The notes beneath the pieces were generated by a model, which saw only the letters and a list, made by a program, of their open reading frames with translations, was not told where the DNA came from and searched no databases. A program made the translations under genes and the position numbers. DNA of 23,749 bases, taken from positions 1-23,749 of the IMG/VR virus record IMGVR_UViG_3300045973_000801. One strand, 5' to 3'. This DNA is from a virus. Within the stretch, counting starts at the first letter, position 1. Every line of letters starts with the position of its first letter. Of this stretch, positions 310 to 17,184 are shown in pieces.

Positions 310-831
310 TCATCCTCGAAGGCGATTTAATACGAGGGCTAAGTGATCAGCCGCCACATCGGCGACCAGTTGCTGATCGCTTTCAGGGAAGCCGACCAAT
401 CGGCGAACCGGCAAGCCGGGGTGATTCACCCGCTTGCGATAGATGCCACCAAACTTGAGCGCCTTACCTTTCTTTGCTGTGATGACGTGGGCGCGTGATC
501 CGTCCTGATGGAAGATGGCCTTGAACCCATCGCCTTTATCGAAGCCGAGGCGCAGATTGTCGCCATGCACTTGATAGTGGAAATTGTCCAGCATCCGGCC
601 AGTTTTATTCAGCGGACCGCCTTTACGTTTTCCCTCTGCCAAGGTTGATGCGGCCAACGGTGCCCATGGCTTTCCATCTGGATCAAGCCCTTGATCGTGG
701 CGCTCCCGATTCACTCGTAATAGCGATTCGCCGAAGCTGCCGAGCATTTCCTGCGGTGTCGCGATCTCCTGCCGGACGGCTTCTAGGGCTGCCACTAGAT
801 GATCGGCTTGAAATTCAATCGTAAATTGCAT
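310..831 (-). CDS. G: Phage virion morphogenesis protein (Mu gpG-like)
   Basis: This 173-aa protein matches the phage virion morphogenesis family (Mu gpG type), which acts in head completion or head-tail joining. Visible family signatures are PDGKPWAPL near residue 51, a basic stretch followed by a NKTGRML segment, and HPGLPVRRLVGF near residue 137. The ATG at 831 has a GGAGC ribosome binding site about 8 nt upstream. It follows F on the minus strand, as in Mu. In Mu the next gene is the protease I, but here the strand continues into a short unrecognised frame, and I lies at the other end of the window on the plus strand. Confidence 0.9.
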   Translation of the reverse strand: MQFTIEFQADHLVAALEAVRQEIATPQEMLGSFGESLLRVNRERHDQGLDPDGKPWAPLAASTLAEGKRKGGPLNKTGRMLDNFHYQVHGDNLRLGFDKGDGFKAIFHQDGSRAHVITAKKGKALKFGGIYRKRVNHPGLPVRRLVGFPESDQQLVADVAADHLALVLNRLRG

Positions 832-898
832 ATGATTAGCTCCAGTGTGGCGATAGAAGACAGGCCCCCTGAAAGGGCAGACCCAATCAAAACCACCG

Positions 899-929
899 AA
901 CGCGGCTTTCAGGGCCGCGTTTTTTATTT
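899..929 (+). terminator. Terminator-like hairpin between F and G, U-tract on the plus strand
   Basis: AACGCGGC (899-906) pairs perfectly with GCCGCGTT (914-921) around a 7-nt loop. A run of T continues on the plus strand to 929. Read on the minus strand, the direction of the F-G operon, the stem sits just after the F stop codon but is followed by a mixed sequence with only short T runs. It therefore looks like an intrinsic terminator for antisense (plus-strand) transcription, and perhaps a weak attenuator or RNA-stability element between F and G. Confidence 0.55.
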
Positions 930-2219
930 CTTGAACAGCAATCGGCCGACACGCTGCTTATCAAAATACTTTAAGCGTGCCTTGGGGTTACTCGGTTCTG
1001 CAACGAAGGCTGTTGAACCTGTCCAGCCCTGACTGCCCCACTCAAAAACAGAAATCCCATATTCCCCCGTCCCATCAACCTCAAAGGCGCGCAAATAGCG
1101 GCGCTTCAGGCGCCAGCGCTTGGGTGAATTCGGGTTTGAATTGCTATGGGCGCGGTCTTCCTCCCATGCCCACCAGATTTCATCCGGCTCAATGATCGTC
1201 ATGGCCATCAAATTGACGTAACGCAGGCGATCAATTTTTTCTGGCTTGCTTAGCCACTTGAATTCGCCAGCACCATCCTCAAACAAGGCTTTCGTGATGG
1301 CCAGCGTGCTACCTGTCGCGTCATGAAAAGCAGCCCCTTTTTCCAAACTGGCGCCGAAGACATCCAGGAAGTCCTGCACAGCCACCTGTGGTGCAGTCTT
1401 AGCAGGGAGAATGGTGCTTGCCGGAATCTTGCTAGGAACTGGCAATGCGGTGCTCGGCGCGTGCGTCGGCCAAGTCGCGTCACGCTCTTGCAATACGGCA
1501 TCGTATCCGGTTAAAGGCTTGACTGTGTGCGGCTCAAGCCATGCCTTGCCGGGATTGTAGGCAAAGCCGGGATCAATCCCTTTAGGCACCATGACGGTGC
1601 GTGGATTGCTGCCATTCTTACCGATGATGCGCTCTTCCATTTCAATGGGTGGCGCTTCATCCGGCCCGGTCTTGCCGGCTTTCTTCCACTCTCGTTCCGC
1701 CTCGACCCGCGACAGCGAATATTTGCGGCATTTGCAGCCCCAGCCGTTTTGCGGCGTGTGGGTATCCCACCACGCATCGTCCAGCGGCAGGACCAAACCG
1801 TTCCATGCTTTGTGTTCAAGGCGCGGATGCTCAATAGTGGTGTGGCGATACATTGCATAAGGGCGCAGGTGCTTGACGGCTTGCATCTGCTGTTCGCGGC
1901 CGGCGTTGTAAGCCTGCGTCACATTGGTGTCGTAGATGATCTTGCTGCGCCAGCCGGGCGTGCCGTTATGTGCCCAGCCATGCTTGGCGACGATATCGCC
2001 GAACTCTTTTTTGAAGACATCGTAGCCACCAGCTTCTTTGGCTTTTGCGATCGCGTTGTACAGGTCTTCGACCAGGGCGTCATGGGCAGCGCCGGCCACC
2101 ACGAAAGCGTGGCTGTGCTGTTCCTGCCAGATGTCCGTCCAGCCGGAACTGGGTAGCTTGATCTTGGCCTTGAAAAAATCGATGGCTTCGGTAAATGGGA
2201 GGTAGGTTGGCGCGGGCAT
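924..2219 (-). CDS. F: Mu F-like head morphogenesis protein with C-terminal PBECR2-type nuclease domain
   Basis: Two regions are visible in this 431-aa protein. Residues 1-175 are the minor head (Mu F/SPP1 gp7) domain, with YDTNVTQAYNAGREQQ at 96-111, HPRLEHKAWNGLVLP at 131-145 and the CKCR cysteine pair at 162-165. After a Pro/Ala/Thr-rich linker (about 245-277), residues 278-431 resemble the PBECR2 family of phage-linked barnase/EndoU/colicin/RelE-like nuclease domains, including PDEIWWAWEE, a LKRRYLRAFEVDG strand and FEWGSQGWTGSTAF. The minor head protein is packaged with the portal, and the C-terminal domain may be delivered with the DNA. The start is ATG 2219, which overlaps the upstream stop (TAATG). 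An ATG 18 nt upstream lies inside the previous gene. The nuclease assignment rests on recalled family patterns. Confidence 0.85.
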   Translation of the reverse strand: MPAPTYLPFTEAIDFFKAKIKLPSSGWTDIWQEQHSHAFVVAGAAHDALVEDLYNAIAKAKEAGGYDVFKKEFGDIVAKHGWAHNGTPGWRSKIIYDTNVTQAYNAGREQQMQAVKHLRPYAMYRHTTIEHPRLEHKAWNGLVLPLDDAWWDTHTPQNGWGCKCRKYSLSRVEAEREWKKAGKTGPDEAPPIEMEERIIGKNGSNPRTVMVPKGIDPGFAYNPGKAWLEPHTVKPLTGYDAVLQERDATWPTHAPSTALPVPSKIPASTILPAKTAPQVAVQDFLDVFGASLEKGAAFHDATGSTLAITKALFEDGAGEFKWLSKPEKIDRLRYVNLMAMTIIEPDEIWWAWEEDRAHSNSNPNSPKRWRLKRRYLRAFEVDGTGEYGISVFEWGSQGWTGSTAFVAEPSNPKARLKYFDKQRVGRLLFKK

Positions 2220-2500
2220 TACGCTTCGTTTTCCCAACCTGCACGCGATCCACCATCGGTATCTTCATCATCTGGCGGTTCAGGAATTGTTGCGACCAGA
2301 GCATGAACGGCGTTGACGATATCGCTGATTTCAAACTCACGCCGATAGTCGCAAAGAGCCGCCCGAATGCTGTGAATGCCTTGTTCCCACCGGTCTTTTC
2401 TAACGATTACTCCATCTGACCGAAATTCGTAATCCTCGGGGTTGGCATCAACGAATTCAGGCCGGCGGAAATCGCGCTCGGTAACCTTCCGATGTGTCAC
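2219..2500 (-). CDS. Conserved small phage protein (THRKVTE type), unknown function
   Basis: This is a 93-aa acidic, hydrophilic protein beginning THRKVTERDFRRPEF, with a central YEFRSDGVIVRKDRWE segment and an acidic tail. I have seen similar short proteins between portal and F genes of Mu-like prophages, but no function is known to me. The start is the GTG at 2500, which overlaps the upstream TGA as GTGA. A GGAGG lies 8 nt upstream of it. An ATG at 2515 is in frame but lacks that support. The stop overlaps the F start codon, so this gene is translationally coupled on both sides. Confidence 0.7.
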   Translation of the reverse strand: MTHRKVTERDFRRPEFVDANPEDYEFRSDGVIVRKDRWEQGIHSIRAALCDYRREFEISDIVNAVHALVATIPEPPDDEDTDGGSRAGWENEA

Positions 2501-2748
2501 GTCCGATCCCTCCAAATAACAAACCTGCAGCTCGTTAAAAGCTCTTCAGTTGGCCGTGTTTTCTTGACCCTTGAGCCGCAGGCGTTTTTTCCCACCTGCA
2601 CGCATTCTTCCCAGTTACGTACCCCGGTTTGTCCGGTCGGTTTGGATTCGCAGAACTTGCTCGGCACCTCGGTGACTGGCTCTTTTTCATCACAGCCACA
2701 GCCGGCAAGCGCCACAAACAAGAGGAGTGCAGGAGTTCTCAAAGTCAT
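2497..2748 (-). CDS. Small putative lipoprotein in the head operon
   Basis: This 83-aa protein has a hydrophobic N-terminus (residues 3-15) ending in a lipobox, LAGC at 14-17, so it is probably exported and lipidated. The mature part carries further cysteines and is basic toward the end. Start and stop overlap neighbouring genes: ATGA with the hidden CxxC gene upstream and GTGA with the 93-aa gene downstream. That packing supports it as real. The function is unknown. A lipoprotein inside a packaging/portal cluster is odd, and superinfection exclusion is one speculative role. Confidence 0.6.
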   Translation of the reverse strand: MTLRTPALLLFVALAGCGCDEKEPVTEVPSKFCESKPTGQTGVRNWEECVQVGKNACGSRVKKTRPTEELLTSCRFVIWRDRT

Positions 2749-2966
2749 TTCAACCTCGGCTCAAAAAACTTGCCATTCCGTCCGCACCGCCACGGTAAGA
2801 AGCCGTTCCGTTCAATGAAAGCATGTTCGTTACACTTGTATTTAAACCGGGGAGTGCCATTAACAGGATCGATCCCGGTTTGTGTTTTTCCGCGTACGCA
2901 CAACGAAAAGTCCTTGTTGTAGTGTGCGCAGTGAATGCACAGACGTTGCTCATTTTTATAACTAAT
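2745..2966 (-). CDS. Small cysteine-rich (CxxC) protein, apparent ATT start
   Basis: Read from ATT 2966 on the minus strand, this 73-aa frame gives a convincing small protein: CIHC at 10-13, C23 after the HYNKDFSL segment, C45 and C61, with a TGIDPVNGTPRFKYKC stretch and FLPWRCGRNGKFFEPRLK at the end. The spaced cysteines suggest zinc binding. The only nearby ATG (2953) is in another frame. GGGAGG sits about 6 nt before the ATT, and the upstream reading in this frame is not protein-like, so an AUU start is the simplest reading. A single-base frameshift near the start is the alternative. The stop overlaps the lipoprotein start (ATGA). The coding frame is clearer than the start. Confidence 0.65.
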   Translation of the reverse strand: MSYKNEQRLCIHCAHYNKDFSLCVRGKTQTGIDPVNGTPRFKYKCNEHAFIERNGFLPWRCGRNGKFFEPRLK

Positions 2967-3208
2967 TCCCCACCTCCCACATCTGACCGGCCAGCAAGAT
3001 TCGCTTCCACCTGATTGCGCATTTTTTCGCGCAGTTCGGTAATGAATGTTTTTGGCCGTCCCTCAACCTCTGATTTCATGTTGTCTAGGGCCATACCTAC
3101 GATCTTGAATTCGGCAAGCCACCGACGATGCTCATGCCACTCCACATGCCACCGCTCAAGCTCTGCCATTTCATTTCCCGCAATCAACCATTTCAGCCAC
3201 TCACGCAT
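2750..3208 (-). CDS. Small head-operon protein, unknown; C-terminal half probably out-of-frame
   Basis: The start is ATG 3208, preceded by GAGGGG about 9 nt upstream and overlapping the portal stop. An ATG 9 nt upstream is less well placed. Residues 1-75 (MREWLKWLIAG, then a charged helical stretch through ELREKMRNQVEANLAG) look like a genuine small phage protein. After about residue 85 the frame runs through the CxxC gene in a shifted register and loses protein-like character (TTTRTFRCAYAEKH and onward) until the stop at 2750. The true product may end earlier through a lost or shifted stop: a TAG in the +1 frame lies exactly at the ATT start of the next gene. The tail ANLAGRSDVGGG resembles the end of the portal protein. 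Confidence 0.55.
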   Translation of the reverse strand: MREWLKWLIAGNEMAELERWHVEWHEHRRWLAEFKIVGMALDNMKSEVEGRPKTFITELREKMRNQVEANLAGRSDVGGGELVIKMSNVCAFTAHTTTRTFRCAYAEKHKPGSILLMALPGLNTSVTNMLSLNGTASYRGGADGMASFLSRG

Positions 3209-9323: not shown

Positions 9324-9552
9324 AGTCATGGCCTTCCCAAGTGAGCTTGCGGACGGCCACCCCATCAATTCCTTCTGGGCTACGTAAAACCCGGCCTTCA
9401 AGCAGGCCGGCGTCAATCAGTAGTTCAAGGTGCTCAAACAGCGTCGCTTCGTCGTACCCGGCTGGCGTGCTGAGATCAATATAAGACCGACCGGGAGGCC
9501 AAGACTCGACCTCCAGCAGGACGGTGCGGATCAGCTCAAAATTTCTTTTCAC
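9187..9552 (-). CDS. DUF2513 family protein
   Basis: This 121-aa protein begins MKRNFELIRTVLLEVE, has a winged-helix-like middle (YDEATLFEHLELLIDAGLLEG), then LTWEGHDFIEAATKPDLWQKA and VKEKGGAMTFDVLKELLKRLA. This is the pattern of DUF2513, small proteins of unknown function common in prophages and mobile islands. The fold suggests a DNA-binding or regulatory role. The start is GTG 9552 with GAGG upstream. It lies 20 nt downstream of the TIR/deoxyribosyltransferase-like gene and may be cotranscribed with it. Confidence 0.8.
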   Translation of the reverse strand: MKRNFELIRTVLLEVESWPPGRSYIDLSTPAGYDEATLFEHLELLIDAGLLEGRVLRSPEGIDGVAVRKLTWEGHDFIEAATKPDLWQKAFATVKEKGGAMTFDVLKELLKRLALSSAGLS

Positions 9553-9572
9553 ACGTTATTCCTCTAGTTTCC

Positions 9573-10448
9573 TTAAAATCTATTCACAGCCTCTCTTTGT
9601 ATTGCTTCGTGCAATGAACGTTTTATCATTTGGCGGTGCCTATCTTTCATGGCAATGTTTTCTGGAACATGTTTTTCCAAATAATTTTCGAGCAAATTGT
9701 TAAATGCTGGAGAGTCGGTTTTGATAAGTTCAATAATTGACACATTTTTGTTTTCTTTTAGATACTCTTGAACAAACCAATCCTCATTCCTTCTGCTAGT
9801 CATCACATCGGCCAAACCTAGCCCAGAGGCAAGGTCTAATGGCCTTCTCGGTTCACGTAAATGAACGGCTCTGCTCAGACCCCGAACCTCATCTCTTAAG
9901 TCACCGATTACCTCTAACAAGTACTCTTCTTTTCCGACTTTCTTTTCATCAATATTCGCCACAACAAACTGACCAAAGTGCTTCAGGAAGGTTGTGTATC
10001 CTTCAGTTTTAGAAGCCTTGTAGGTAGCAATAACCTTCTCGCGCAATTTGATTTTGAATGCCTGTATCGTGTGGTAGTGAAGGTCCCTCGGATACTCAAG
10101 GTGCTCTATCGGCGATGTGTCAAAAGAGTAATTTGTTTTGTCGTCCTTAATGATGATCGTTGGCTTATCAAACGCCAGTCTCATCCCGAGCTCAAACATT
10201 ACATTCGAATTTCTTGCGCTGACATCGCAAATGATCATTTCATTGTCGTGAATGTTCTGAACTATTCTTTTTTGAATGATGCCGATTTCGTTCGAATTGC
10301 TGACCAATTCGACAATGAAGTCTTCATCAGCAAGTGCCTCTTTAATAATCGTTCTGACTTCTTCCCAGTGGGATTCTGAGCAGCCATCAATTTGAGAGAT
10401 GGGCATGATCAGCCCGCATTTAGGTGGGCTTTTCTGTTTTTCAGTCAC
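9573..10448 (-). CDS. TIR/nucleoside deoxyribosyltransferase-like domain protein, candidate defence effector
   Basis: In this 291-aa protein the N-terminal 150 residues carry KCGLIMPISQID (about 10-21), an alternating helix-strand pattern, IIQKRIVQNIHDNEMIICDVSARNSNVMFELGMRLAF (about 57-93) and KPTIIIKDDKTNYSFD. The D-S-x-x-N-x-N-V-x-[FY]-E-L-G signature is typical of nucleoside 2-deoxyribosyltransferase-like and TIR-like domains that act on nucleotides, often in antiphage systems. Residues 150-291 are a helical region of unknown role (EEYLLEVIGDLRDEVRGL and SIIELIKTDSPAFNNLLENYL). The start is GTG 10448, overlapping the upstream stop by 8 nt. It is more AT-rich than the phage core, suggesting acquired cargo. 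The defence role is inference. Confidence 0.7.
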   Translation of the reverse strand: MTEKQKSPPKCGLIMPISQIDGCSESHWEEVRTIIKEALADEDFIVELVSNSNEIGIIQKRIVQNIHDNEMIICDVSARNSNVMFELGMRLAFDKPTIIIKDDKTNYSFDTSPIEHLEYPRDLHYHTIQAFKIKLREKVIATYKASKTEGYTTFLKHFGQFVVANIDEKKVGKEEYLLEVIGDLRDEVRGLSRAVHLREPRRPLDLASGLGLADVMTSRRNEDWFVQEYLKENKNVSIIELIKTDSPAFNNLLENYLEKHVPENIAMKDRHRQMIKRSLHEAIQREAVNRF

Positions 10449-11427: not shown

Positions 11428-12342
11428 TCATTTCTGCATCCCTTGAACGGCTAGGAGCATCTGGCGCAATCCAATGACGGCATCGGTATGTGACATTCCG
11501 CCATGCCTTACCGTGGCATACATCGCCAATGTTTTTGTGCACTCATCAGGCGAAGAATAAGCAACGGGGATTTGTGGAATGAGTTCCAGAAGCTCTACTG
11601 TTGATGCAGATAGCTTTTCATCCCTCACGACTTTGGCTGTTTTGAAGGCCACGTTACCAATAAATTGTTCATCTGATTTACAGGCATTGCTAGCCACAGC
11701 CAATGCTTTTCTGATTCGATCAACTCGTGCGTCTGTTTCCGGAACAGGGGAGCCAGCATCAAGCATTGCGATTTTGGCTGGAAAGCTTAGTTCAGATTTG
11801 TTTTCTGCCCAGATGTCAGGATTGACAAGCGCAAGGTGATAAACCTGCTTGTCTTCAGTCATGATGCAGAAACGCGTTTGTTGTGCAGGCGTATCCTCGC
11901 AAGCGCTTTTTCCCAAATGCCCTTGTGCTTCAAGGACCATCTGCATCATTTCGACAGGGTCTTCACTTTCTGCATCCTTCCCCCGTGCCATGCGTAGGAG
12001 AATTCTTCCAGCCTTCGTGAGATCACCTGGGTTATTGAGTTTCTGGACATCAAGTTCGAGTAGCGCCCCTGTAAATTTATTGTTTAGGCCACTGATACGG
12101 AGTTGAGCGCCGGAAGAGGATAGTGGGCATTCAATAAGAATGTCCCGATTCCTTCCAATGTCCTTCGTTTCAATACAGTCGCGCGTCGCTAATGCGGGTG
12201 ATATTTGTTTTGCCAAGGTGTTATAGCGATCATGAAATGATGGCTGCTGCACTAGCTTCTGCTCCTGTACAGACCCCTTTTCAGACTGACTGCAGCCCGC
12301 CATGACGAAAATAAATAGCAGTGCCCAGATAAGCCCTTTCAT
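11428..12342 (-). CDS. Lipoprotein of unknown function in the repressor operon
   Basis: This 304-aa protein starts MKGLIWALLFIFVMAGCSQS: an N-terminal signal of about 15 residues and a lipobox, MAGC, with Cys at 17. The mature protein is soluble and mixed helix/strand, with a cysteine-containing segment DTPAQQTRFCIMTEDKQVYH near 160-180 and a helical C-terminus. I do not recognise the family. Its ATG overlaps the stop of the 69-aa gene (ATGA), which in turn sits 8 nt after the repressor, so it is most likely produced in lysogens. That makes it a lysogenic-conversion candidate displayed at the envelope. Confidence 0.7.
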   Translation of the reverse strand: MKGLIWALLFIFVMAGCSQSEKGSVQEQKLVQQPSFHDRYNTLAKQISPALATRDCIETKDIGRNRDILIECPLSSSGAQLRISGLNNKFTGALLELDVQKLNNPGDLTKAGRILLRMARGKDAESEDPVEMMQMVLEAQGHLGKSACEDTPAQQTRFCIMTEDKQVYHLALVNPDIWAENKSELSFPAKIAMLDAGSPVPETDARVDRIRKALAVASNACKSDEQFIGNVAFKTAKVVRDEKLSASTVELLELIPQIPVAYSSPDECTKTLAMYATVRHGGMSHTDAVIGLRQMLLAVQGMQK

Positions 12343-12556: not shown

Positions 12557-12949
12557 TTAGTTCTTGATGTTTCGCCCGGCGGTTTGAGACGTGACGTTGA
12601 CAGTCTTGGATTTCTGCGTTTGCCCCGGCAAAGGGTCGCCGCCACCCAACATGAAGGCCAGCATGCGGCGACGGGTGGCTACGTCCAAGGCACGGTAGCC
12701 GTCCAGCAACACCTGTTCATCTGGCGTTAGGGCCGTGGCCGCTCTTTCGCCTGTCAGGATGTATTCGATGTTCGCGCCGGCCAGAGCAAAACTAGCCAAG
12801 GCTTCTGAGGCAATAGCTGCTTTTCCGCGCTCGTACTTCCCCCACATCTCCCTGCTGACACCACACATAGAGCCTGCTGCATCTTGGCTCAATCCAAGTC
12901 GTTTTCGTTCCTCTTGAAGACGGGGAGCGTAAAGAGAACAAAAGTCCAT
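12557..12949 (-). CDS. Cro/CI-type helix-turn-helix repressor
   Basis: This 130-aa protein has an N-terminal XRE-type HTH at about residues 10-65 (RLQEERKRLGLSQDAAGSMCGVSREMWGKYERGKAAI and the following helix), then ANIEYILTGE and a short helical region. It lacks a peptidase domain, so induction by self-cleavage is unlikely. The C-terminal 17 residues carry a VTSQTAGRNIKN tail that recurs in the next gene. It is transcribed leftward, divergent from ner, the position of Mu c. It probably binds the palindrome at 12965-12984. The ribosome site upstream of ATG 12949 is weak. Confidence 0.85.
   Translation of the reverse strand: MDFCSLYAPRLQEERKRLGLSQDAAGSMCGVSREMWGKYERGKAAIASEALASFALAGANIEYILTGERAATALTPDEQVLLDGYRALDVATRRRMLAFMLGGGDPLPGQTQKSKTVNVTSQTAGRNIKN
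12934..12945 (+). promoter_or_regulatory. Second operator-like half-site within repressor codons 2-6
   Basis: GAGAACAAAAGT here is identical over 12 nt to the minus-strand reading of the operator at 12965-12984, but the far half-site is not conserved. It overlaps the first codons of the repressor gene, so binding could autoregulate it. It is about 30 nt from the main operator, about three helical turns centre to centre. Confidence 0.5.
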
Positions 12950-12958
12950 AAATAAACC

Positions 12959-12987
12959 TTGACGATGAGAACTTTTGTTCTCATAAT
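12959..12987 (+). promoter_or_regulatory. Rightward early promoter
   Basis: TTGACG at 12959-12964 and CATAAT at 12982-12987 are separated by exactly 17 nt and match sigma-70 consensus in 5 of 6 positions each. Transcription would start near 12994, giving ner a leader of about 64 nt. The operator fills the spacer, so repressor binding would exclude RNA polymerase. A second, weaker candidate (TTGCGC at 13000, TAGATA at 13022) lies downstream. Confidence 0.7.
12965..12984. promoter_or_regulatory. Palindromic repressor operator
   Basis: ATGAGAAC and GTTCTCAT form a perfect 8-bp dyad around TTTT, inside the spacer of the early promoter. It is placed as expected for a Cro/CI-type repressor site. 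The assignment to the 12557-12949 product is inferred from position. Confidence 0.7.
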
Positions 12988-13057
12988 TTAGCCTATGGAT
13001 TGCGCGAATAGCAATTCACTGTAGATAAAAACTTAGCTTAACAGGAAAGGAGCATAT

Positions 13058-13285
13058 ATGCACCCGGAAGATATCAAGGCCGCGTTGAGAAAGCGCGGCT
13101 CCAGTCAAGCCATCTTGGCGCGGGAGCTGGGGGTGGCTATCACGTCTGTTCACAACGTGATTCACGGCGCTTGCAAGTCAGAGCGCATCGCCAAGGCCAT
13201 TTCAGAAGTCGTCGGCGTTGACCGTGCTCTTTTGTGGCCCAGTCGCTACGTCTCACGCGACCAACGTCTTCGCAACGCGGCATAG
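13058..13285 (+). CDS. ner: Ner-like transcriptional regulator
   Basis: This 75-aa protein has the Ner/Nlp fold signature: MHPEDIKAALRKRGSSQAILARELGVAITSVHNVIHG, with a recognition helix near residues 26-38, followed by ERIAKAISEVVGVDRALLWPSRY. In Mu, Ner represses early transcription once lytic growth has begun. It is the first gene of the rightward operon, with AAGGAG about 7 nt upstream, and diverges from the repressor gene. Confidence 0.9.
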   Translation: MHPEDIKAALRKRGSSQAILARELGVAITSVHNVIHGACKSERIAKAISEVVGVDRALLWPSRYVSRDQRLRNAA

Positions 13286-13294
13286 GGGAATCAC

Positions 13295-13420
13295 ATGTAT
13301 TTACGTCAACAAAACGGTCTAGAGCTTCACCATCTGAACTTCGAATTTCTTGATGCCATGATGGTGGTCTTGCGTTTTCACGGTGCCGAAGCAGCTGTGT
13401 GCTTTGCGGTGGGGTGCTGA
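13295..13420 (+). CDS. 41-aa hypothetical protein
   Basis: A short frame lies between ner and the H-NS-domain gene. It begins MYLRQQNGLELHHLNFEF and ends VCFAVGC. GGGGAA lies about 6 nt before the ATG, and the TGA is 2 nt before the next start (TGATCATG), the same junction spacing as elsewhere in the operon. The hydrophobic middle is too short to call a membrane segment. The function is unknown. The support is position and packing only. Confidence 0.45.
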   Translation: MYLRQQNGLELHHLNFEFLDAMMVVLRFHGAEAAVCFAVGC

Positions 13421-13422
13421 TC

Positions 13423-14559
13423 ATGGGGATCAAATATATCCACCCGGAAAATATCGGACTGGAATGGTCAGGCAAGGGACGCCAGCCGATTTGGGTAGCG
13501 AACTGGATCAACGATGGCGGCGCACTGGCCGATCTGGCGGTCGACGGTAAAACCCGGCCTGAAATCGATCTCGATATCGGCGGTGTCATTGATGCTGAAA
13601 CGCTGCCAGTAACAGATCAACAGGAAGCCGGGCAGCAGCAGCTTGAGGTTTGCCTGCGTGAATTCGGATTTCAGGCACTGACGGCTGAAGAGTTTATTCA
13701 GGCAGGTGCTGACGAATTTAATAAGAGCGTTGTCCATGCGTGCCGTGCCGGTGCGGCTTTTTGGGCGGCCCAAGAGGCGTTAAAAAATAAGTCCGGAATC
13801 CGGACTTCCGGCATGGATGAGTTGATTGCCGAGGTTGGACTGCCGAAACAGCGCGTTTATGAGGCCATTTCCATGGCGAAGTTCTACGCCCGGTTGCCCG
13901 AAGTTATGCGTAGCAAGGCGCTATCGCTTGGCAAATCAAATGCCCTTCTACTTGCCTCGCTCCCTCAGGAAGTCATTGATCAGGCCGCCGCATCCGGCAA
14001 TGACCTGATCGGCAAGGCCGACATGATGACGGTGGCCGAGCTGAAAGAAGAGCTGCGTCAGATGCAGCGACGCGAGAAAAACTACGAGGCCGAGCTGGAA
14101 CGCTCTGCTAACCAGATCAAGCGTCTCTCTGAAGACAAGCAGCGCACCACGGATTTCCTGCTGCGCACGGAAGAATTACGCGAAGAGTGCATGGCCCTGC
14201 AACTGGGCGCCGAACTGCATTTAAACAGCCTTCGCAAGCTGTTTGAAGAGACGGATTTACAGGCAACCGAGGGCACGCTGCAGGCCGAGCATGTCTGGGT
14301 GGTTGCCAACACGCTGGCGGCCCGGGCGCTTGACCTGCTTGAGTACCTGCAAGCGCGCGTGCCAGAAGGCATGCCGGAACGCCCGATGACCCAGCACATG
14401 CTGACGCCCGCTGAAGCGGCTCGCTGGCTGCTCGACTACCCCTTGATCGAAAACCGCTTCGCCGCTGAGCAGTCGGTGCGCGAATCGCGCCGTGCCGATG
14501 TTCGCCCACGTGGCCCTGGCCGTCCGAAAGGTGCTTCGAACAAGGGTGGCGAGGCCTAA
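13423..14559 (+). CDS. Early protein with N-terminal H-NS-type DNA-binding motif and C-terminal AT-hook
   Basis: This 378-aa protein starts at ATG 13423; the in-frame ATG at 13399 lies inside the previous gene. Residues 4-38 (YIHPENIGLEWSGKGRQPIW and following) match the C-terminal DNA-binding domain of H-NS-family proteins, with its W-S-G-K-G-R-x-P core, but at the N-terminus. Residues 80-180 resemble DUF3102-type or ParB-like helical regions (AAFWAAQEAL, GLPKQRVYEAISMAKFYARLPE). Residues 205-265 are coiled coil. The tail contains RPRGPGRPKGASNK, an AT-hook core. Two minor-groove binders on one coiled-coil protein suggest DNA bridging or recruitment. It sits just before the transposase. The function is inferred. 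Confidence 0.75.
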   Translation: MGIKYIHPENIGLEWSGKGRQPIWVANWINDGGALADLAVDGKTRPEIDLDIGGVIDAETLPVTDQQEAGQQQLEVCLREFGFQALTAEEFIQAGADEFNKSVVHACRAGAAFWAAQEALKNKSGIRTSGMDELIAEVGLPKQRVYEAISMAKFYARLPEVMRSKALSLGKSNALLLASLPQEVIDQAAASGNDLIGKADMMTVAELKEELRQMQRREKNYEAELERSANQIKRLSEDKQRTTDFLLRTEELREECMALQLGAELHLNSLRKLFEETDLQATEGTLQAEHVWVVANTLAARALDLLEYLQARVPEGMPERPMTQHMLTPAEAARWLLDYPLIENRFAAEQSVRESRRADVRPRGPGRPKGASNKGGEA

Positions 14560-14577
14560 GCCATGCGCGGGGGAGCC

Positions 14578-16230
14578 ATGATGAAACGCATTGAGCCGGC
14601 CAGCCCCGGTGGCGCACGGGCGGTCAAGCCGGTCGCTCAGGTGCTGGCGTTACGGCAGCGTGACCCTTGGCGCGAGGCCACCGAACGCGCCCGGCAGGTG
14701 GCGCTCAGTCGTGAGGGGGTGGTGGTTTATATCCGCTCGTTGATTGATAGCGGCGTCACGCAAAACAACGCGGTGGGGTTGCTGATTGAGCGTGGTTTGG
14801 CCGGCGCATTGCCCGTTCATGTTGCCACCATGCTGGCCGGTGCGGCTAAGGCTGGCCGCTCGGCTCCCTCTCGCTCGGCCATCTGCGAATGGTGCGCCCT
14901 GCACCGCGAAGGCGGCATCACTGCACTGCTGCCGGATCACAAGGGCCGCGTGGTGGAAGCCGCCGGTTGGTGGGGGCCGGCCCTTGAATACTTCAACGTG
15001 CCCTCAAAGCCCGATATGTCGGCGGTTTATCGCCGGCTGGTCGAAGTGGATCACTTTGCCGTCACGTATGACCAGGTGCGCGGCTACTTAACAGGAGTCC
15101 CTGCCATGCTTGGACGCAACAGCCCGGCGCGGATCGGCAAGAAGCTCTACAAGCTGACGGAAAAGGCCTTTATTCGGCGGTCGACCGCCAATGCCTTGCC
15201 CGGCGACGTGTATGTGGCCGACGGCTACCGGGTCGATAAATACCTCGCGCACCCGGTGACGGGCGATATCTGGCGCCCTGAATTGACGGTGGCGATGGAT
15301 ATGCGTAGCCGCATGCCGGTGCACTGGCGGGCGGATGAGCACGAAGGCACCTATGCCGTGCAGAACATGTGGGCTGAGTGTTTTGCTAAGTGGAACCACG
15401 TGCCGCCCTTCCTCTATGTGGATAACGGCTCGGGTTATAAAAACTTCCTGATGTCGGATGAGGCGGTCGGTTTTTATGCCCGCGCTGGCATTCAGCAAGT
15501 GATTCATGCCATCCCCGGTAACCCGCACGGCAAGGGCTGGATTGAGCGCTTCTTCCGCTCAATGCGCGATGACTTCCTCAAGCTCTGGCACCCCGAGTTG
15601 TACTGCGGTGATGACATGGCCCCAGAGGCGCTGAATCACACCGTGGCCGAGATCAAGGCCGGGCGCTTGAAATTGCCCTCGCTCGCAGAGTTTTCTGATG
15701 CGCTCAATGCCTGGATAGCGCGCTACATCAGCCGTCCGCATCCGGAAGATGCCAGCGTGACGCGGGCTGAACTGTGGGCGCAACTGGTGCCGATCCCGCC
15801 TTGCGGCAGCGTCACCGAACTGAAGCGTCAGGCCGTCACGCTCACCGTGCGCCGCGCCAGCATCAAGCATGGCAAGCGCGAGTACAGCCACCCCGATCTG
15901 CATGCCTTCAACGGTGAAAAGCTGGTCATGGAATACGACCTGATGGACGACCGTATTGCCGTGATGCGCACCCATAACGGGCGCTGGATTTGCGACGCCA
16001 ACCTGATCGTGGCGATGGATGCCATCGCACCGAACCGCCTGGAAGAAAAGCGCCAGCACCGGGTCGACGACGCGATGAAGCGCCTGCAAAAGAAGATGGA
16101 CGAACAACAAGCCCGCTCTGGCCGGGTCATCGACGCCGATGCCGTGGCCGATGGGGCGGCGCTGGAAGGCACGGCCACCCGTTTGCTTGGCGATGCCGGC
16201 GACGATGAAATCAATCTTTTCGATATTTAA
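14578..16230 (+). CDS. A: Mu-type DDE transposase (MuA-like)
   Basis: This protein of about 550 aa catalyses strand transfer for integration and replicative transposition. The RNase H-like core has the acidic triad, counted from the 14578 start: D215 in VYVADGYRVDK, D282 in LYVDNGSGYKN and E323 in HGKGWIERFFRSM. The D-D spacing of 67 equals that of MuA. The C-terminal Mu-type beta-barrel region follows (about 390-470) and then a charged helical tail, the probable contact for MuB and ClpX. The start is chosen at ATG 14578 or 14581, after GGGGGAG. The ATG at 14563 precedes that ribosome site. Confidence 0.95.
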   Translation: MMKRIEPASPGGARAVKPVAQVLALRQRDPWREATERARQVALSREGVVVYIRSLIDSGVTQNNAVGLLIERGLAGALPVHVATMLAGAAKAGRSAPSRSAICEWCALHREGGITALLPDHKGRVVEAAGWWGPALEYFNVPSKPDMSAVYRRLVEVDHFAVTYDQVRGYLTGVPAMLGRNSPARIGKKLYKLTEKAFIRRSTANALPGDVYVADGYRVDKYLAHPVTGDIWRPELTVAMDMRSRMPVHWRADEHEGTYAVQNMWAECFAKWNHVPPFLYVDNGSGYKNFLMSDEAVGFYARAGIQQVIHAIPGNPHGKGWIERFFRSMRDDFLKLWHPELYCGDDMAPEALNHTVAEIKAGRLKLPSLAEFSDALNAWIARYISRPHPEDASVTRAELWAQLVPIPPCGSVTELKRQAVTLTVRRASIKHGKREYSHPDLHAFNGEKLVMEYDLMDDRIAVMRTHNGRWICDANLIVAMDAIAPNRLEEKRQHRVDDAMKRLQKKMDEQQARSGRVIDADAVADGAALEGTATRLLGDAGDDEINLFDI

Positions 16231-16239
16231 GGGGAAACC

Positions 16240-17184
16240 ATGTCTGAAACCATCCAGTGGCCCAGCCACTACACCCAAGCCGACGTGGCGCTGATCGCCA
16301 TCGTCAAGGACTGGATTGCGGCTCGTGAATATACGCAGGCCGCGCTGGCCCGGCTGGCGCGTATCTCCGGCAGCAGTCTGAACCAGATCATCAAGGGCGT
16401 GTATGCGACCAGCCCGACAAAGTTGTTGACCTCGGTCGAGTCGGCTATGCGCCATGCCGATGAAACCAGCGGCCATACCGTGGCGGCGGTGGAAACCAGT
16501 GTCTTTCGCCTGGTCAATATTGCGTGCGACATGGCGCGGCGCTATCGCAATTTTGCGGTGGCCACCGGCTTTGTCGGCACCGGCAAGACCTTTGCGCTGA
16601 AGCACTACGCCAGCACGCACCCCAACACCTATTTCATCGAAGCGGCACCGACCATGACGCAGGCCAGCCTGACCAAGCAGCTTTATCGCGTCGTGGTCGG
16701 CCCCGGCAAAGGCAGCATCGCAGATAAATACGACGAACTGGTCGCCAGCCTGAAAAGCACTGACGCTTTGATCATCGTGGATGAGGCCGAGACACTGACC
16801 CCCGGTCAGTTGCATACGATCCGCCGCGTACGCGACATGGCGGGCATCGGCATCGTGCTGGCAGGAACGGAACACCTCTCCGGTTTGATCAAGCCGCTGC
16901 ACGGCCAGTTTGACCAGATTCGCTCCCGCGTCGGCTTCTGGCCGGAGACGATCCGCGCTATCAGCCAGGACGATGCCGCCGCCCTGGTGCAATCCGCCTT
17001 TGGCGCTGAAGAAGTCGCCGATGAAGTGATTGCCCGCCTGTACGCCTACTGCAAGGGCAGCGCCCGGATGCTGGTGGAGGGGTTAGTCGCCGGCATCAAG
17101 GAATTCCGCCGGGGCCGTGCCCTGGATATCAAGCTGGTCGACGCCGTCGCCAAGCAAGCCCTTTGTCTTCAATCACTCGCTTGA
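16240..17184 (+). CDS. B: MuB-like ATPase, transposition target-DNA activator
   Basis: Residues 16-60 of this 314-aa protein form an HTH (YTQAALARLARISGSSLNQI). The AAA+/ATPase domain has Walker A GFVGTGKT at 110-117 and Walker B ALIIVDEAE at 176-184, followed by a sensor-like VLAGTEHL. MuB binds target DNA nonspecifically, delivers it to MuA and gives target immunity. The small N-terminal HTH and the order A-B are as in Mu. It starts 9 nt after A with GGGGAAA upstream. Confidence 0.93.
   Translation: MSETIQWPSHYTQADVALIAIVKDWIAAREYTQAALARLARISGSSLNQIIKGVYATSPTKLLTSVESAMRHADETSGHTVAAVETSVFRLVNIACDMARRYRNFAVATGFVGTGKTFALKHYASTHPNTYFIEAAPTMTQASLTKQLYRVVVGPGKGSIADKYDELVASLKSTDALIIVDEAETLTPGQLHTIRRVRDMAGIGIVLAGTEHLSGLIKPLHGQFDQIRSRVGFWPETIRAISQDDAAALVQSAFGAEEVADEVIARLYAYCKGSARMLVEGLVAGIKEFRRGRALDIKLVDAVAKQALCLQSLA

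Follow-up and report, generated by a model that had tools for sequence, protein, structure and literature searches.

An H-NS-type DNA-binding domain at the N terminus of an early protein with an AT-hook-like tail in Mu-like phages

In all H-NS-like silencers reviewed in PMC6936261, DNA binding is a C-terminal function and lies behind an N-terminal oligomerization domain. Members of this family (H-NS, Bv3F, Ler, and StpA; Pfam family PF00816) are about 105 to 135 amino acids long and contain a Q/R-G-R hook. The phage proteins described here share with them one complete DNA-binding domain and its fold but carry this domain at the N terminus of a chain of 378 to 449 amino acids, lack the oligomerization domain, and have KGR or KGK at the hook. 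PMC8501957 and PMC6070864 cite anti-H-NS proteins encoded by several phages, as well as the repression of the Mu early promoter by H-NS and its relief by IHF. T7 gp5.5, T4 Arn, and LUZ24 gp4 (Mip) are early phage proteins aimed at host silencers, as proposed below for the new protein. However, they bind the silencer, whereas the new protein would compete for its DNA sites. Phage EPV1 of "Candidatus Accumulibacter" (Skennerton et al. 2011, PMC3097231) encodes an H-NS that, like the domain studied here, was apparently acquired from the host. That H-NS is full-length and has the normal domain order, whereas in the proteins described here the DNA-binding domain alone is joined to a phage protein. 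The nearest described relatives, Burkholderia phage KS10 gp15 and Curvibacter phage TJ1 QDB70120.1 (phrog_18998), occupy the same locus upstream of the transposase and have a GRP tail. Their middle and helical parts are homologous to those of the new protein (26 to 29% identity), but they have no N-terminal H-NS domain.

The window, i.e., the whole stretch of DNA analyzed, comprises positions 1 to 23,749 of the IMG/VR virus record IMGVR_UViG_3300045973_000801. Its early region and the parts of the fusion protein are as follows.

12557-12949, minus strand: Cro/CI-type repressor, divergent
12950-13057, no strand: AT-rich early control region, about 36 to 37% GC versus 56% for the window
13058-13285, plus strand: ner-like regulator (HTH_35) that opens the early operon
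13423-14559, plus strand: fusion gene for the H-NS module/helical/AT-hook protein, 378 amino acids (open reading frame, with relatives at the same locus)
13429-13542, plus strand: module corresponding to the H-NS C-terminal domain, residues 3 to 40 (PF00816; AlphaFold and Foldseek)
13474-13482, plus strand: K-G-R in the position of the Q/R-G-R minor-groove hook of H-NS, residues 18 to 20 (alignment with 2l92, Bv3F, WSGRGRQP)
13561-13581, plus strand: EIDLDIG motif, residues 47 to 53, matching the N-terminal EIDLGIG motif of relatives without the module
13813-14019, plus strand: helical middle, residues 131 to 199 (AlphaFold helices; weak DUF3102 matches in relatives)
14032-14250, plus strand: long helices, residues 204 to 239 and 247 to 276, probable coiled coil (AlphaFold; weak matches to coiled-coil families)
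14503-14544, plus strand: AT-hook-like tail RPRGPGRPKGASNK, residues 361 to 374, with a GRP core (GRP conserved in relatives)
14563-16230, plus strand: Mu-type transposase, MuA-like (Mu-transpos_C, phrog_310)
16240-17184, plus strand: MuB-like AAA transposition protein (AAA_22, phrog_296)

The remainder of the window is that of a Mu-like phage, with DUF3164, GemA, and Mor. In the loci examined, the gene order is constant (repressor, in some cases ner, fusion-family gene, transposase A, and B), and transposase A lies immediately 3' of the family gene with or without the H-NS module. L002 has a homologue of the ner-like gene, and an HTH gene occupies that place in KS10. The location between ner and the transposase given in the preliminary description is thus confirmed, and the gene order supports its placement of the protein in the early operon. 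An open reading frame of 41 codons (MYLRQQNGLELHHLNFEFLDAMMVVLRFHGAEAAVCFAVGC), below the 60-amino-acid limit for open reading frames, lies between ner and the fusion gene (window positions 13295 to 13420, plus strand). Another host-type nucleoid protein of this phage group, KS10 gp23, annotated as HU-beta, is encoded in the early region (L004, positions 11585 to 11857, plus strand).

The window protein starts with MGIKYIHPENIGLEWSGKGRQPIWVANWINDGGALADL. Pfam search matches residues 3 to 40 to the full length of the PF00816 profile (1-38/38) with an E value of 3.7e-9 and a score of 36.6 bits, above the curated cut-off of 25.6 bits. This bears out the H-NS-type DNA-binding domain that had been proposed for the N terminus, near residues 1 to 45, from the letters of the DNA. 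The AlphaFold model of residues 1 to 53 contains two short strands and one helix, with pLDDT of 71 to 87 by blocks over residues 1 to 40. In agreement with the domain assignment, the top three Foldseek matches of this model are the C-terminal domains of Ler (probability 0.94, TM-score 0.55 to 0.59), Bv3F, and Salmonella H-NS. Six matches were found among 350,542 chains, none of them at E ≤ 0.001, which is not surprising for a query of about 40 residues. Foldseek with the whole-protein model gave no useful match (best E value, 2.1), phmmer search against solved structures in the PDB gave only a weak match of the same stretch to Bv3F (E value, 0.28), and the NCBIfam search of the window protein returned no name. 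A chance PF00816 match is ruled out by the E value, seven further different sequences, and the fold matches. Likewise, a wrong start codon masking a longer protein is ruled out by in-frame stops located 0 to 5 codons upstream of the start codon in L005, L007, L022, and L095, so the module is truly N-terminal.

Searches of phage records, which yielded KS10 gp15 and the TJ1 protein, followed by scans of viral contigs and genomes, reveal eight distinct carriers of the module: the window, L002/L006, L005, L007, L022 (a prophage in an Azonexus genome), L034/L090 (a prophage in genome G191), L094, and L095/L096 (identical, on two contigs). PF00816 is recognized by Pfam in L005, L006, L007, and L022 (E values from 1.2e-10 to 6.9e-13); in L034/L090, L094, and L095/L096, the module is assigned by motif and alignment at the same place. 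In L009, L010, L023, L024, L025, L026, KS10, and TJ1, the gene occupies the equivalent place but has no module. In overlapping draws of 399 genomes each from the order and from the family to which the Azonexus genome belongs, the whole-protein profile matched 34 genomes. Only two of these have the module, both already known, and the module-first layout is therefore rare. Literature searches on N-terminal H-NS domains, DUF3102 in phages, and H-NS domain fusions found no description of this layout, so the earlier statement that no such protein had been described holds within the libraries and papers searched. Within these limits, the layout is real, recurrent, and undescribed, and its component pieces are already known.

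In carriers, the H-NS module is followed by a short variable segment, in most cases an EIDLGIG-type motif, the helical middle, long helices, and the GRP tail. Residues 81 to 377 of the window protein match phrog_18998 (E value, 5.4e-74). AlphaFold modeled the whole protein with moderate quality (mean pLDDT, 73.5; pTM, 0.36), with helices between residues 131 and 190 and at 204 to 239, 247 to 276, 284 to 312, and 329 to 360, and with low confidence at residues 42 to 67 and 369 to 378. The EIDLGIG-type motif is conserved at the N terminus of the family (window positions 13561 to 13581; L114, L116, L117, and L134) and looks like a short binding motif.

The middle of the protein had been described as DUF3102/ParB-like. 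No Pfam match to DUF3102 (PF11300) is seen in the middle of the window protein, but 2 of the 19 relatives have it (best E value, 0.00025); one of these, L007, scores 18.9 bits, below the family cut-off of 24.4 bits. The DUF3102 relationship thus receives weak support, and the ParB-like label is not established. The long coiled coil proposed for the next part corresponds to predicted helices 204 to 239 and 247 to 276; its coiled-coil nature is probable, and the protein might dimerize through these helices, judging from the model. None of the 19 aligned relatives departs from the GRP of the tail. Classic AT-hook tails are RRGRPKGSKNK in L025 and RGRGRPAGSKN in L007. The window protein has PGRP rather than RGRP and no Pfam AT-hook match, and its tail is predicted to be unstructured. 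Accordingly, of the proposed C-terminal AT-hook, the GRP tail is present, but the Pfam match is absent. This domain map now covers a gene whose product has been annotated only as a hypothetical protein in Mu-like Burkholderiales phages. With the H-NS domain at its front and the AT-hook-like tail, the protein represents a natural experiment in which DNA recognition is separated from filament formation.

Several relatives without the module start at or just before the EIDLGIG motif, for example with MSNDEIDLGIGG in L114, MDNEIDLGIGG in L116, and MTDIDLGLGD in L134. Most simply, therefore, the H-NS module would have been added in front of the existing N terminus of an older Mu-like phage family (KS10 gp15/phrog_18998). 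On the transposase tree, the carriers do not form one clade, and a single carrier clade is rejected (AU test, p=1.4e-23). The tree requires a minimum of 4 changes of carrier state, at least 3 of them forced by well-supported branches. The carrier L090 is sister to the noncarrier L023, and the nearest row to the window is the noncarrier L009. This distribution is compatible with gain, loss, or transfer alike. L005 and L007 retain the module and the GRP tail around a middle different from that of the other carriers; L005 still has the late helical part in common with them, and L007 as a whole is only 22% identical to the window protein. Nevertheless, the modules of L005, L007, and L022 are 76 to 84% identical to each other, despite the distant transposase and middle of L007. 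Because carriers are not a clade and two of them have the module before a different middle, the sequence data indicate that module and middle are swapped between phages.

The same sequence forms the C terminus of canonical H-NS proteins of Rhodocyclaceae, and each phage module shares 55 to 71% identity with its closest host counterpart. The Azonexus genome has both forms, the N-terminal phage module and a canonical C-terminal H-NS domain. Given the identity of up to 71%, the module was likely captured from a host-type H-NS, and a DNA preference like that of the host H-NS is expected. The module tree, based on 38 columns, is compatible with one capture or three. That some close relatives have the module and others do not suggests an accessory trait directed at the host, not a core function.

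The first hook position is K in all eight phage modules (6 KGR and 2 KGK) and R in all 40 other distinct modules (37 RGR and 3 RGK). This pattern fits one capture followed by descent, or selection on the hook. The Trp/Gly/Arg core, from which the domain had been recognized, is kept in the close homologues that bear the domain, with the third hook residue changed from R to K in two of them. Neither of the two findings that the preliminary description would have taken as a refutation, a missing PF00816 match or a lost core, was obtained. As K for R is a conservative change, KGR and KGK may still bind AT-rich DNA, although the departure from the usual Q/RGR might lower the affinity of the module.

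The swapping of middles between retained ends could also mean that the module is a passive specificity tag, one of several interchangeable tips with which phages and plasmids would raise the general DNA affinity of unrelated proteins, with the real function (e.g., replication or partition) located in the DUF3102-like/helical middle. H-NS domains are indeed found at the C termini of unrelated proteins, which are RMF-like in L033 and L035, ParB-like in L047, and winged-helix-like in L097. However, a tag explains neither why every phage copy starts its hook with K nor the close resemblance of the module to the host H-NS, and we consider it quite improbable.

We tentatively favor, at somewhat less than even confidence, an early minor-groove binder that would compete for the AT-rich early control region with the H-NS of the host. 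In this scheme, the protein would be made early, from the first operon, dimerize through its long helices, and hold AT-rich minor grooves with both ends. The module would occupy host H-NS sites in the AT-rich region between the repressor and ner. Since it probably derives from H-NS and the H-NS oligomerization domain is absent, these sites would be taken without building an H-NS silencing filament, so that the early promoter, which serves ner, the fusion gene, and transposases A and B, would stay open once the phage infects or is induced. The preliminary description had offered DNA bridging, the countering of host H-NS silencing, and a bias in transposition targets; of these three functions, counter-silencing appears to fit best, by analogy, with the repression of the Mu early promoter. 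It would make the protein a competition-type antagonist, unlike gp5.5, Arn, and Mip, and a direct test of the dependence of H-NS silencing on site occupancy. On the other side, family members without the module keep the GRP tail and the place next to the transposase, so the basic job of the family must differ. In the fuller proposal, a captured host H-NS domain with an altered hook (R to K) would have passed repeatedly between Mu-like phages, placed at the front of an early two-ended minor-groove protein so as to displace the silencer from the early promoter; this is possible but rather doubtful. If true, silencing would be countered by taking the silencer's own DNA reader and not by binding the silencer.

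Two predicted minor-groove readers on a long, probably dimeric protein could also bridge DNA. The protein might then be a phage-encoded silencer or regulator that silences host genes, such as those for defense, or its own genes via filaments or bridges on AT-rich DNA. There are precedents in the full H-NS of EPV1, a proposed repressor of host defense (PMC3097231), and in CgpS, shown to silence a prophage (PMC7074111). This role is improbable, as the H-NS oligomerization domain is absent and the gene belongs to the lytic early operon instead of accompanying a lysogeny gene.

A role as an accessory of transposition or target choice, acting with transposases A and B by bridging or bending phage ends or target DNA, is the main alternative, unlikely but less so. 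Here, the module would steer insertion towards or away from the H-NS-bound AT-rich chromosome. The adjoining transposase genes are compatible with this role, the GRP tail is invariant across the family, and H-NS acts on Tn5 transposition complexes (PMC3347997); however, gene adjacency by itself is weak evidence, and Mu itself is not known to carry a comparable gene between ner and A. Moreover, close relatives with transposases 75 to 83% identical have no module, which is hence dispensable for transposition as such.

The competition with H-NS that we favor would take place at the early control region. Within the analyzed DNA around the gene, AT content reaches or nearly reaches its maximum 0.3 to 0.8 kb upstream of the gene in most carriers. 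In the window, the early control region comes second, after positions 9530 to 9790 outside it, which have about 31% GC per 150 bases. Over 24 loci, the data do not support a higher AT content of the control region in carriers (p=0.27 and 0.49); only among near relatives, a subset chosen post hoc, do carriers and noncarriers differ (p=0.019). Because noncarriers also have an AT-rich control region, it is a plausible target and not functional evidence. A specific lack of IHF sites in carriers was uninformative as a candidate difference, since a consensus match is absent in nearly all loci.

Several other proteins encountered in the scans have an H-NS-type domain at the usual C-terminal position. 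A region similar by eye to ribosome modulation factor precedes it in phage-like L033 (positions 679 to 1644, plus strand) and L035 (754 to 1644, minus strand). It ends an open frame of 543 amino acids on the plus strand of L047, ParB-like by eye (WSGRGKQPAWVVAWL), and a phage protein in L097 that appears winged-helix-like by eye (2245 to 3138, plus strand; WTGRGKMPGWAKHLL).
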